A stretch of 64,000 nt of DNA from Vagococcus luciliae (GTDB taxonomy: Bacteria > Bacillota > Bacilli > Lactobacillales > Vagococcaceae), in assembly GCF_024637875.1 (NCBI RefSeq), contig NZ_CP102451.1, positions 685,001 to 749,000 of the forward strand, in the 5' to 3' direction. The translations under genes and the position numbers were made by a program. The notes below the pieces were generated by a model. It searched no databases and was not told where the DNA came from. It saw nothing but the letters and a program-made list of their open reading frames with translations. Below, in pieces: positions 42,408 to 48,658 of this stretch. How positions within the stretch are numbered: position 1 is the first letter of the stretch; each line of letters opens with the position of its first letter.

Positions 42408-42956
42408 ATGATTATGAGAGAGGATATTTTTGACTTATTAAAGGAACGTGCTGTGAAAGGATGTTCCTATTCGTTTGACTATATTTTTGAAACATACAAG
42501 CCTATTGTTTATCGTTCGAAGAAAGTATATCATTTATACCATTATGAGACAGACGATTGGTTGCAAGAAGGAAGAATCGTATGTTTCAAGTCCTTACAAA
42601 CATATGATGTTAAACGTGGAGCAACGTTTGGTAGTTACTTTCGAATGAATTTTAAGAACCATATATTTTCTTTGATAAGGAGACAAGAAGCTCATAAAAG
42701 AAGAGTAGATAAAGAGTGCATCACTTGCGGAGGGGATATTGACATGATGTCTCATGTGATTGAAAATCGCCCACTAGAAACCATTAAATATATATTTTAT
42801 AAAGAAAATACGTTTCTTTTTGCGGAATCATTATCTGATTATGAACGTCAAGTGTTCGTAAAATATACATTAGAACAGGAATGTAAGATGTTAAAAGAAA
42901 AAAGAGCCTTAACTCGAATTAAGAAAAAGTTTGTTCATCACTATATTAACCCATAA
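42408..42956 (+). CDS. ComX/SigH-like alternative sigma factor
   Basis: 182 residues. Region 2 is recognisable: FDYIFETYKPIVYRSKKVYHLYHYE then DDWLQEGRIVCFKSLQTYD (2.2, core binding) and GSYFRMNFKNHIFSLIRRQEAHKR (2.3-2.4). A shortened region 4 (YERQVFVKYTLEQECKMLKEKRALTRIKKKF) follows, as in competence sigma factors of lactic acid bacteria. AAGGAG suits ATG 42408 or ATG 42414. It may turn on late competence genes; a prepilin peptidase gene is also in the window. The induction signal is not visible. Confidence 0.78.
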   Translation: MIMREDIFDLLKERAVKGCSYSFDYIFETYKPIVYRSKKVYHLYHYETDDWLQEGRIVCFKSLQTYDVKRGATFGSYFRMNFKNHIFSLIRRQEAHKRRVDKECITCGGDIDMMSHVIENRPLETIKYIFYKENTFLFAESLSDYERQVFVKYTLEQECKMLKEKRALTRIKKKFVHHYINP

Positions 42957-44235: not shown

Positions 44236-45276
44236 ATGACCAATAAAACTAATAAAATACAACCAGAAAATTTAAATAATACAAAATTAAAGAAGAAACG
44301 TAAAAAAAAAAAACATAGACAATCATCTGTTCATTCTGCCTGTTCAACCAAGGCTATAAAAAATGGAAAAGTAGTCGTTAAAAAAAGAAAACAAATAACA
44401 GAACAAGAAATAATTAACGAAAAAAAGGAGTTATCAAATAAAAAGAATATAAAAAGGTTGAGTGTGGGAGCTATTTTGATTGCTACTTTAGGATTAAGTA
44501 CAACAGCTGTTGCTTTAAATCATCATAATTATCATCAGGAAGAACCAGAAATAAAGCAACATGTGGTTACAAAAGAATACAAACCTGGTAGTCTAACGTA
44601 CGAAAAAGTTCAAAAAAATAACGAAAAAAACAATAAAGAGGAAATTAATAAAGAGGAAATTAATAAAGAGGAAATTAATAAAGAGGAAATTAATAAGATG
44701 GAGCCTCAAACTAATAATACAGCGGTTAATGAAGTACAAGAATCTGCAGCATCTCAAGAAGAATTAGTACAAGAAACAGTAATGGAACCAGAATCAATTT
44801 CTGTTTTTAGCCAAGAAAAATCCTCGGGAAGCGATGAATTACATGGTGTTCAGATACAACCAGCTATGACTTTAAATATTTTAGGGGAAATTATTTATTA
44901 TCAAAATGGTGGACAAATAGCAGGACAAAGTATTATTGATGCAAACTCTGATTCTGAAGCATCTACATGGGGGGGAGCTCAAATATTTTCTGGAAATGAT
45001 GGGCTCAACACACATTTTATCGGTCACAATCCTGGAGCATTTAGCATTATTTTTAGTTTATCAATTGGAAATCAAATAGTGGTAACTGATTCCATTGGGA
45101 CATCTCAAACATATGTTGTGGATTCTATTTGTCAAGTAACAGATGATGGTGTAGATACTAATACGGGTACTGACTTATATGATATGATTGCTGGAGAAGG
45201 TGGAGGAGAAAGGATTACTTTACAGTCATGTATTAATGATGAAGTTAACTTAATTATTTTTGCTTCTGCACAATAG
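44236..45276 (+). CDS. Sortase-like membrane protein with long basic cytoplasmic tail and NKEEI repeats
   Basis: 346 residues. Residues 1-75 are extremely Lys/Arg-rich and should stay in the cytoplasm. One membrane helix lies at about 76-96. A linker contains four NKEEI repeats (about 133-152) and more acidic residues to about 200. The C-terminal 145 residues resemble a class A sortase: His264 in HFIGHNPGAFS, and TLQSC with Cys332 in place of the usual TLxTC. The expected catalytic Arg after the Cys (RLxxxA) reads NLIIFA, so an Arg at the normal place is missing. Activity is therefore doubtful or altered. Its terminator and the Mga-type genes follow. No substrate gene is adjacent. Confidence 0.75.
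   Translation: MTNKTNKIQPENLNNTKLKKKRKKKKHRQSSVHSACSTKAIKNGKVVVKKRKQITEQEIINEKKELSNKKNIKRLSVGAILIATLGLSTTAVALNHHNYHQEEPEIKQHVVTKEYKPGSLTYEKVQKNNEKNNKEEINKEEINKEEINKEEINKMEPQTNNTAVNEVQESAASQEELVQETVMEPESISVFSQEKSSGSDELHGVQIQPAMTLNILGEIIYYQNGGQIAGQSIIDANSDSEASTWGGAQIFSGNDGLNTHFIGHNPGAFSIIFSLSIGNQIVVTDSIGTSQTYVVDSICQVTDDGVDTNTGTDLYDMIAGEGGGERITLQSCINDEVNLIIFASAQ
44632..44691 (+). repeat. Four perfect 15-bp tandem repeats inside the sortase-like gene
   Basis: AATAAAGAGGAAATT occurs four times without change (44632, 44647, 44662, 44677) and encodes NKEEI each time; a fifth partial copy follows. The unit is a multiple of three, so slippage changes linker length without breaking the frame. Confidence 0.95.
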
Positions 45277-45279
45277 ATA

Positions 45280-45319
45280 AAAAACACGATATTTGTAGTA
45301 AATATCGTGTTTTTGTTTA
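45280..45319. terminator. Terminator after the sortase-like gene
   Basis: AAAAACACGATATTT and AAATATCGTGTTTTT form a perfect 15-bp stem with a 5-nt loop and trailing T. Confidence 0.92.
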
Positions 45320-45393
45320 CTTTTAGTACCTATATTGCATAAAATATGTTAAAATTTATTTAATTAATTATGTGTTTAAGGAGGATGGGTAGT

Positions 45394-46878
45394 GTGAAAC
45401 ACATTTTGAATAAAGATACTGAAAGACAGCAGCGTTTAATTATGTTGATGTTTAAGGATGATAAATGGAAATCAGCAAAATATATATCAGATACCTTATC
45501 TTGTAATATAAAAACATTAAGACAAGATATTGAATATTTAACAACTACTTACGAGGATGTTTTAATATGTGATTATTCAAAAAATATAGGTTATAAATTT
45601 TTTGTTAAAACAGGACATAGTATACAAGAAATATTTTTGGATTGGATTAACCACTCACTATTTTTTTCGATTATTACTGACGTATTTTATCAAAAAAATA
45701 AAGATGATAAAGATTATTTTTATAATACTTATTTTGTTAGTGAAACAACGTTGAAACGTCAAGTGGCTATTATAAATTATCATTTGAAAGAATTGGGTAT
45801 ATCTCTAAGTTTGAGTCAAATGAATTTTAAAGTAACGGATGAATTTGTTGCTCGGATATTTTTTGGCAATCGTGAAATGGAAAAGCGATCTATTTATGAT
45901 TGGGATGATTCACAAATACAAAATCAACAATATGCCTTTCAAATTATTGAGATTTTAGAAGACTTCCATCAGATTAAATTAACTGTACTACAAAAAAATA
46001 TGATGGCTTATTTTGTCCTTTGTTCAGTCATTCGTTCATCAGGAGGATTTTATTTAGATGAACCTAATATAATTGAGAGTCCATTGATGATTCATAAAAA
46101 CGTTCAAGGTATTTTACGTTCGTTTAAAGACCCTAATAACAATATGAAGTATTTAACTTCTAAGGAGCAGATAAATGATACACTACGGTTTCTTGATAAA
46201 TTTTTTGAAAAATTGAAAGTGACGTATACTTCGAAATTAGCAACAGATATCAGTGAAGAATTGATAGAACTTATTGTGGATAAAATGAAAACAGAAATAG
46301 GCGTTTTTGATAAGACATTATTAGTAAAAGATATTGGTTATATTCTTTTTGTCAAGGAAAATTATCCTTATAAAATGAGCTATATCAATCATAGAGGGTA
46401 CTTTAATTCAGCTGCTATACAGATAAAATACCCTGTTTTTTACCAAGCAGTAATGGATAGTTTTAATCAATTATCTAACGATCATATCTGGTTAGCTACC
46501 TATACTCCTGAATTAATAAATAGTTTATTTAGGTATTGGAACGCACAAGATTATGGATATATCACTAGCATTAATCAGGTGAAAGTATTTATTTCAACCA
46601 CGCTTAATGAAAATCAGGTGAAATTAAATCAATATATTTTTGAGAAAGCATTTAAGAATAAAATGGTTGTTATTGGTTATGAGTGTCAAAAGGCAAGTTG
46701 TAATGTTGATCCAACAAACAAAATATTAGCAGAAGCTGAACTAGTTATATGTAATCATCAATTTTATCAAGGTTTAGATAATATCATTATAGTAGATGAT
46801 ATTATTGATGATGCTAAGTTGTATTATATTAATCAACGACTAAATAAAATTCAAACTGAAAAAATGACAGGACTCTAA
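45394..46878 (+). CDS. Mga/AtxA-type transcriptional regulator, copy 1
   Basis: 494 residues from GTG 45394, nine bases after AAGGAGG. The start aligns with that of the second copy (K-H-I-L-N-K against G-L-I-L-N-K). It has an N-terminal HTH (CNIKTLRQDIEYL, about 38-50), a second Mga HTH (SETTLKRQVAIINYHLKELGISL, about 115-137), PRD-like helical domains (about 175-390) and a IIB-like C-terminal domain (KVFISTTLNENQ onward). Mga-type proteins activate surface and virulence genes in streptococci and enterococci in response to sugar metabolism. Target unknown; the sortase-like gene upstream is a candidate. Confidence 0.82.
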   Translation: MKHILNKDTERQQRLIMLMFKDDKWKSAKYISDTLSCNIKTLRQDIEYLTTTYEDVLICDYSKNIGYKFFVKTGHSIQEIFLDWINHSLFFSIITDVFYQKNKDDKDYFYNTYFVSETTLKRQVAIINYHLKELGISLSLSQMNFKVTDEFVARIFFGNREMEKRSIYDWDDSQIQNQQYAFQIIEILEDFHQIKLTVLQKNMMAYFVLCSVIRSSGGFYLDEPNIIESPLMIHKNVQGILRSFKDPNNNMKYLTSKEQINDTLRFLDKFFEKLKVTYTSKLATDISEELIELIVDKMKTEIGVFDKTLLVKDIGYILFVKENYPYKMSYINHRGYFNSAAIQIKYPVFYQAVMDSFNQLSNDHIWLATYTPELINSLFRYWNAQDYGYITSINQVKVFISTTLNENQVKLNQYIFEKAFKNKMVVIGYECQKASCNVDPTNKILAEAELVICNHQFYQGLDNIIIVDDIIDDAKLYYINQRLNKIQTEKMTGL

Positions 46879-47137: not shown

Positions 47138-47179
47138 AATAAATTTGTTCAAAAAAGATAGTAAAAAGAGGTGTGTGAA

Positions 47180-48658
47180 TTGGGATTAATCTTAAATAAA
47201 AGTACAGAAAGACAAAGGCAACTTATTTTGTTTATTGCCCGAAATTATGAATGGGTCACAGCACAGGAGTTAGCAGATTATTTAGATTGTAATATAAAAA
47301 CAGTTAGACAAGATATTAGTTATTTGGAAGAAAATTATGCCGATATTATTACAGTAGAATATTCTAAACAATTAGGTTATAGATTTTATACGATGGATGG
47401 ACGTAATGTATTAGAAATTTATTTAAATTGGAGCCAGGAATCTCTTTTTTTCTCTATTTTATCTGATTGTTTTTTTGGAAAGAATACTAGCTTAGATTAT
47501 TTCTATGATACTTACTTTATTAGTGAGACAACGTTAAAACGTCAAATGTCATTGATTAATCGAACTTTAAAAAAATTGGGTATTTCTGTTAGTTCTTCAA
47601 CAGGACAATTGAAAGTAAAGGATGAACGGATATTAAGATTTTTTTATGCTTTATTTATTATTGAAAAACAATCTATTTACGAATGGAAAGATATGGATAT
47701 GAATCAGAAAATATTATTTGACATAATAGGTATCTGTGAGCAATATTTTAATATTAATTTGAGTAATATCCAAAAAAATATTTTTTCTTTTTTTATTTAT
47801 ACATCTGTTATTCGCTCAAGTCAGGACAAGTTTTTAGATTTTGTAACAGCAATACCGTCTGATTTTGAGCAAATTGTGTCTCAATCTTTAAAAATATTAA
47901 AACATGAATCAACTTTTGATGTTTTTTTGACTAGTGAGGCACATTATAGAGATAGTTTACAATTTGTCTATGTGTTATTTAGTCAATTAGCTGATCATTA
48001 TCACTCTCAAGAGGTGGAAGGTTTAACAACACATTTTATTTTCTCTATATCTAGTAAGATGAAAGTTGATGAAAAAGTTCTTGATTATCAGGGGATAAAA
48101 AAAGAATTAGCCTACGTTTCTTTTATGAATGATGTTTATCCTTATCAACTAAATTTGGTTAGTTTACGAAGTGAATTAAATGCTAAATCTATTAAATTAC
48201 AGTATCCAATTTTTTATGATATTGTATCCCAAAGTTTAAAAGAATTAGAAATAAATACTCCTTGGATTCGTTTTTATAAGCCTTTATTGATTAGTCGTGC
48301 CTTTAGGTATTGGGATTATAAGGAATTTGAGAGTCTTACTAAAATTAAGCCTGTTTCAATAGTGGTCTCGACAACTTTAGAGAAAAATCATGCTGAGATT
48401 TTAAGTTATATTTTAAAACAAACATTTCAAGCTAAAATTAGAATTGTAGGATTAGAATATGAAAAGACATTATTTAATAGTAAAGAAACGAGGGATTCTT
48501 TGAATAAAGTCGATATTGTGATAACGAACCACCTCTTTTATCACGACTTAGATAATGTGATTATTGTAGATGACGTTATTGAAAATAATCGATTAGAAGC
48601 TATTAAACGTTTAATAGATGGTATATTAATGAAAAATACTGAACAAGGTTTGGAATAA
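47180..48658 (+). CDS. Mga/AtxA-type transcriptional regulator, copy 2
   Basis: 492 residues. TTG 47180 lies eight bases after GAGG and aligns with the start of copy 1; GTG 47171 is part of that site. Same domain order as copy 1: HTH (CNIKTVRQDISYLEENY), Mga HTH (SETTLKRQMSLINRTLKKLGISV), PRD-like region, IIB-like tail (VSIVVSTTLEKNHAEI) ending near LDNVIIVDDVIENN. The two proteins share obvious sequence along their whole length, so this is a tandem duplication now diverged. Regulatory target not visible. Confidence 0.82.
   Translation: MGLILNKSTERQRQLILFIARNYEWVTAQELADYLDCNIKTVRQDISYLEENYADIITVEYSKQLGYRFYTMDGRNVLEIYLNWSQESLFFSILSDCFFGKNTSLDYFYDTYFISETTLKRQMSLINRTLKKLGISVSSSTGQLKVKDERILRFFYALFIIEKQSIYEWKDMDMNQKILFDIIGICEQYFNINLSNIQKNIFSFFIYTSVIRSSQDKFLDFVTAIPSDFEQIVSQSLKILKHESTFDVFLTSEAHYRDSLQFVYVLFSQLADHYHSQEVEGLTTHFIFSISSKMKVDEKVLDYQGIKKELAYVSFMNDVYPYQLNLVSLRSELNAKSIKLQYPIFYDIVSQSLKELEINTPWIRFYKPLLISRAFRYWDYKEFESLTKIKPVSIVVSTTLEKNHAEILSYILKQTFQAKIRIVGLEYEKTLFNSKETRDSLNKVDIVITNHLFYHDLDNVIIVDDVIENNRLEAIKRLIDGILMKNTEQGLE

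Follow-up and report, generated by a model that had tools for sequence, protein, structure and literature searches.

Sortase E1 has its catalytic His after strand 4 and its catalytic Cys at the end of strand 7; strand 8 starts at Y328, with Arg329 as its second residue (PMC5148588). The role of the sortase Arg, oxyanion stabilization or substrate positioning, is debated, and more work has been called for (PMC9520033). In SrtA of Streptococcus pyogenes (SpySrtA), R216 touches the P3/P4 carbonyls and not the P1 oxyanion, the oxyanion hole consisting of T207 plus amides; R216A abolished activity (PMC9520033), and T207A was also inactive. An evolved Staphylococcus aureus SrtA in which this Arg was replaced with Ser is an efficient transpeptidase on LMVGG (PMC9520033), which shows that the chemistry can outlast loss of the Arg. 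The loop between strands 7 and 8 also affects sortase selectivity (PMC8361268).

The window analyzed here is a stretch of 64,000 nucleotides from Vagococcus luciliae (NZ_CP102451.1, positions 685,001 to 749,000). It carries a gene for a sortase-fold protein of 346 aa (P0001), with an ATG start and an AAGGGG ribosome-binding site upstream, and the following features:

44236..45276, + strand: Asn-type sortase-fold coding sequence (P0001), an ORF matching Pfam PF04203, with 57 homologous loci in the genome collection
44236..44463, + strand: Lys-rich cytoplasmic n-region, residues 1-76, net charge +20, kept in three Vagococcus genomes
44464..44514, + strand: signal-peptide or membrane-anchor hydrophobic core, VGAILIATLGLSTTAVA, whose end resembles an A-x-A signal peptidase site
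44632..44696, + strand: 4.3 perfect copies of a 15-bp tandem repeat, which code for (KEEIN)n in the extracellular linker, a variable region
44845..45273, + strand: sortase-fold domain, residues 204-346, by AlphaFold2 model and Foldseek matches to PDB sortases
45025..45027, + strand: His264 codon CAC, at the catalytic His position directly after strand 4
45211..45213, + strand: Arg326 codon AGG, no other Arg occurring past the hydrophobic core; strand 7 starts here in the model
45229..45231, + strand: Cys332 codon TGT, at the nucleophile position, end of strand 7 in the model
45247..45249, + strand: Asn338 codon AAC, where sortases have the catalytic Arg; second position in strand 8
45280..45314, + strand: terminator-like hairpin 3' of the sortase gene, matching in both directions

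The codons were checked in the sequence, and His264 (IGHN), Cys332 (TLQSC), and Asn338 (NLIIFA) lie where the first-pass annotation had put them. The copy number of the KEEIN repeat could vary without a frameshift.

Residues 249-344 of P0001 matched the Pfam Sortase family PF04203 (E 7.5e-8; 32.6 bits, over the gathering cut-off of 26.6), a partial match covering profile positions 31-123 of 125. P0001 had no match in NCBIfam, and searching the PDB by sequence gave none either. Residues 204-346, modelled with AlphaFold2 from 60 homologues, gave a confident structure (pLDDT 95, pTM 0.90), to which DSSP assigned the eight strands of the sortase beta-barrel. Foldseek matched the model to class A, C, D, and E sortases of the PDB at ~16% identity (E down to 2.6e-6, probability 1.00, TM ~0.67); there were 61 matches at E <= 0.001, and the best 50 of the 61 were all sortases. 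His264 and Cys332 are placed as in known sortases, and the start of strand 8 holds Asn338 instead of Arg. Because its strand placement equals that of Arg329 in sortase E1, Asn338 is at the Arg position, and, judging from secondary structure and alignment, it occupies the place of the catalytic Arg in the predicted local geometry. The same column reads R-L/F/Y in ordinary sortases of the same bacterial family and N-L-I-I in P0001, and eight homologues of P0001 have R-L-I-L or a similar string in this very column; at the level of sequence, we regard the alignment with the catalytic Arg as sound. The swap of Arg for Asn proposed in the first-pass annotation is thus real. Structure prediction also placed no substitute Arg in the active site. 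Beyond the hydrophobic core, R326 is the only Arg; it lies six residues ahead of Cys332 on one continuous strand, which by strand geometry would put it ~20 angstroms from Cys332, beyond reach of the active site, and it is absent from 11 of 74 Asn-type members. With a confident fold, a missing Arg, and no replacement available, the proposal of a diverged or differently acting sortase is supported.

The Asn is not peculiar to V. luciliae. Among 60 homologous sequences aligned for residue counts, His264, Cys332, and Gln330 are invariant (60/60 each), whereas position 338 is Asn in 51, Arg in eight, and Leu in one, the Asn-type sequences coming from Enterococcus, Vagococcus, Lacticaseibacillus, Alkalibacillus, and Clostridia. 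The residue preceding the Cys is T, S, or A (A in 5/60). A lone conserved Cys persists in the exported domain through 35-81% identity, which would fit a catalytic thiol. In contrast, Arg stands at this position in all 31 readable ordinary sortases from the same family of bacteria, including three from the V. luciliae genome itself, and the Pfam Sortase score is bimodal, with the Asn family at 31-47 bits and nearly all others at 55-106 bits. Of 398 genomes searched within the order, 58 contained the wider family; among 399 genomes across the phylum, matches besides the window's own were seen in two only, both weak. In a family tree with the Asn column masked, which has few columns and many weak forks, the interchange of Arg and Asn needs at least three changes, with Cys and His retained, and the Arg-bearing members are Lacticaseibacillus and termite-gut/Pilibacter lineages. 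The exchange therefore looks like a conserved trait in a family of dozens, that is, a natural variant with changed specificity and not a broken sortase. A degenerate pseudogene was ruled out by a domain dN/dS of ~0.13 against V. bubulae together with the family conservation. A search of phages and viral contigs for a phage or mobile-element origin gave no match, and the only plasmids matched were E. raffinosus and E. gilvus megaplasmids, about 0.9-1.2 Mb in size. We found no description of an Asn-type sortase family in open-licence papers, and this Lactobacillales-centred family is apparently undescribed.

Several variants were seen at its margins. A second Enterococcus subfamily (loci L106-L125) reads 'CITDTVNRCVLAR', with Asn at the Arg position and Arg one residue on, and has no link to Mga-type regulators; L111, L114, L123, and L116 have the Asn without an Arg behind it. 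In distant relatives (L117-L121), TLQTC is replaced by QYC and the Arg position is taken by Ser or Leu; two of them (L120 and L121) read QYCRW, with an Arg immediately after the Cys. Lactococcus hodotermopsidis has two adjacent Asn-type sortase genes (L058:5848-7267), and Enterococcus florum (L020) and Vagococcus allomyrinae (L022) have two nearby copies each.

As the first-pass annotation reported, P0001 has a strongly basic N-terminus before the membrane helix, here counted as 76 aa. Its further view that such a terminus is unusual for a sortase was right as to length only, since basic n-regions are normal among V. luciliae sortases, two others of which (L072 and L073) carry Lys-rich ones. 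The tail is cytoplasmic according to the positive-inside rule. Compared with V. bubulae, the n-region showed dN 0.31 and dS 1.05, and the sortase domain dN 0.10 and dS 0.79; judging from these rates, the n-region is translated and mildly constrained. It is limited to three Vagococcus genomes plus a remnant in a near relative (G013), and homologues elsewhere are mostly without it; it is a long cytoplasmic n-region and not a family trait. A search of the genus for other proteins carrying the tail, as would be expected of a shared export or targeting module, found none, and nothing supports the suggested binding of nucleic acid. The hydrophobic core ends in TTAVA, TTAAA, or TTAIA in the three species, and TTAVA could be a signal peptidase site at which the protein is cleaved.

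Two regulator genes lie downstream of the sortase gene:

45370..46878, + strand: regulator R1, Mga type (Pfam Mga PF05043, E 1.2e-7)
47171..48658, + strand: regulator R2, Mga type, a paralogue of R1 (Pfam Mga, E 2.4e-12)

With NCBIfam NF053736 (AcpB/EbpR/MafR; cut-off 130 bits), R2 scored 174.8 bits, over the cut-off, and R1 116 bits, under it, whereas the sortase-adjacent regulators of two Enterococcus genomes scored 406-433 bits with the AcpB/EbpR/MafR model. The start of R1 is probably GTG at 45394 behind AAGGAGG rather than the ORF's first ATG at 45370. An Mga-type regulator directly adjoins the Asn-type sortase gene at 35 loci, the window included, namely 32 of the 33 found in Enterococcus plus those of three Vagococcus genomes, and at none outside Enterococcaceae, although the orientation (divergent, convergent, or tandem) and the wider context vary. 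Since Mga-type matches number 31-34 per Enterococcus genome and ~10 in V. luciliae, we put chance adjacency at ~1-2% per locus, related loci not being independent. In the regulator tree, in which three rows tagged 'background' are themselves sortase-adjacent, the sortase-adjacent regulators form one clade containing a single non-adjacent lineage. The top PDB matches of two sortase-adjacent regulators were MgaSpn (5WAY) and AcpB (9ATX); their identity as MafR itself is unsupported, 3SQN not being among the PDB hits of the two tested. In G013, a single deletion from sortase codon ~103 to R2 codon ~308 (L180, G013:C1:1762000-1776000, about 7490) has fused the two genes, taking out R1 together with the sortase domain and over half of R2, with flanks that stay 91-100% identical. 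The module is thus dispensable and was lost as a unit. The linked regulator genes and the conservation of the Asn as a family trait were both overlooked in the earlier reading, whose idea of a regulatory sortase is without direct support, though a dedicated transcription-regulator gene does adjoin. Further upstream, a 182-aa ORF (42408-42956) between a MerR-type regulator gene and veg weakly matched sigma-70 region 2, just under the cut-off (E 9.4e-5) and is kept at 98% in G013.

Taken together, P0001 is most likely an active enzyme outside the cytoplasm, a Cys-His transpeptidase or peptidase whose specificity is not for LPXTG; its catalysis, its changed specificity, and its regulation are what we infer. 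The protein would be exported by its N-terminal hydrophobic segment, either a signal anchor or a signal peptide that is cleaved off, and the variable linker would space the C-terminal domain from the membrane. There, Cys332 and His264 would act as a cysteine transpeptidase or peptidase, with backbone amides and the Ser/Thr that precedes the Cys presumably holding the oxyanion, as in SpySrtA. The canonical Arg serves mainly to clamp the P3/P4 carbonyls of LPXTG; with Asn in its place and a short loop between strands 7 and 8 (Cys to Asn +6, vs. +8 in SpySrtA, +9 in SrtE1, and +13 in SaSrtA), P0001 would have a different, non-LPXTG substrate, and we take Asn338 with the short loop to indicate another substrate rather than lost chemistry. 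Ordinary sorting would fall to the three Arg-bearing sortases of the genome, and expression would be controlled by the adjacent Mga-type regulator(s). We somewhat favor this account of a Cys-His-Asn sortase-fold family of Cys-His transpeptidases or peptidases with a non-LPXTG substrate under adjacent Mga-type regulation. To the proposal of an active, natural Arg-free sortase class, with Cys-His-Asn, a non-LPXTG substrate, a dedicated Mga-type regulator, and a portable module of two or three genes in enterococci and vagococci, we give slightly less than even credence.

Arg loss can simply inactivate a sortase, as R216A does in SpySrtA, and the active-enzyme reading has further points against it: no LPXTG-like substrate gene was seen at the Asn-type loci, and five homologues have Ala before the Cys, where T207A is inactive in SpySrtA. 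The essential R216 thus lends weight to a pseudo-sortase, in which transpeptidase chemistry has been lost, the domain binds peptides or the cell wall, and Cys and His are kept for binding or structure; the Ig-like or SH3b domains on some homologues would suit binding, and the Arg position also varies (S, L) in distant members. We consider this unlikely, since Cys and His are invariant although many positions vary and since it is Asn, not random residues, that is retained over the tree. Improbable in our judgment is a sortase-fold enzyme acting on peptidoglycan or on itself (a hydrolase, a cross-linker, or a self-processing protein) and not on sorting signals: the extra domains are SH3b (SH3_3) in some homologues, some have signal peptides of cleavable appearance and might be released into the wall, and linked substrate genes are missing at the loci, but the linker, only 26% identical between close species, has no conserved cleavage motif. 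As for an ordinary LPXTG-type sortase in which another residue replaces the Arg with little consequence, the fold is clearly that of a sortase and natural Arg-type homologues exist within the family; no other Arg is within reach of the site, however, Asn is kept and not reverted in most members, and the genome already has three Arg-type sortases, so that we think this very improbable.

A family in which Asn is the rule and Lacticaseibacillus and termite-gut lineages bear Arg allows both states to be compared in one scaffold. It could also provide ligases of new specificity, and the substrate of the Asn-type sortases would reveal the cell-surface role of the regulator-linked modules. The family is masked as 'class F sortase' by one annotation pipeline; RefSeq gives this product name to WP_222227096.1 of E. 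raffinosus (another homologue is named 'sortase'). An ordinary class F sortase (NF033748, cut-off 166) was ruled out, as a homologue (L030) scored 20.7 bits and P0001 gave no match.

Compared with sortases of classes A, C, D, and E (PF04203; S. pyogenes and S. agalactiae SrtA, Clostridium perfringens SrtC, Bacillus anthracis SrtD, and Streptomyces coelicolor SrtE1), P0001 has the same eight strands, the His after strand 4, the Cys ending strand 7, strand 8 starting at the Arg position, and an N-terminal hydrophobic segment for export, but differs in the Asn for Arg, in its ~16% identity, and in the invariant Gln two residues before the Cys. With the evolved, LMVGG-specific S. aureus SrtA it shares the absence of the Arg (PMC9520033); that enzyme is engineered and has Ser, whereas the natural family keeps Asn across genera. 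As to gene arrangement, the sortase-linked regulators, R1 with a score under the cut-off, belong to the same family as those of the EbpR/MafR/AcpB systems and are likewise associated with a sortase gene. Regulators of the EbpR/MafR/AcpB type adjoin surface-protein genes, as in ebpR-ebpABC-srtC of E. faecalis. Unlike in that cluster, no pilus genes were recognized beside the module in the flanks read, and the sortase is of the Asn type.
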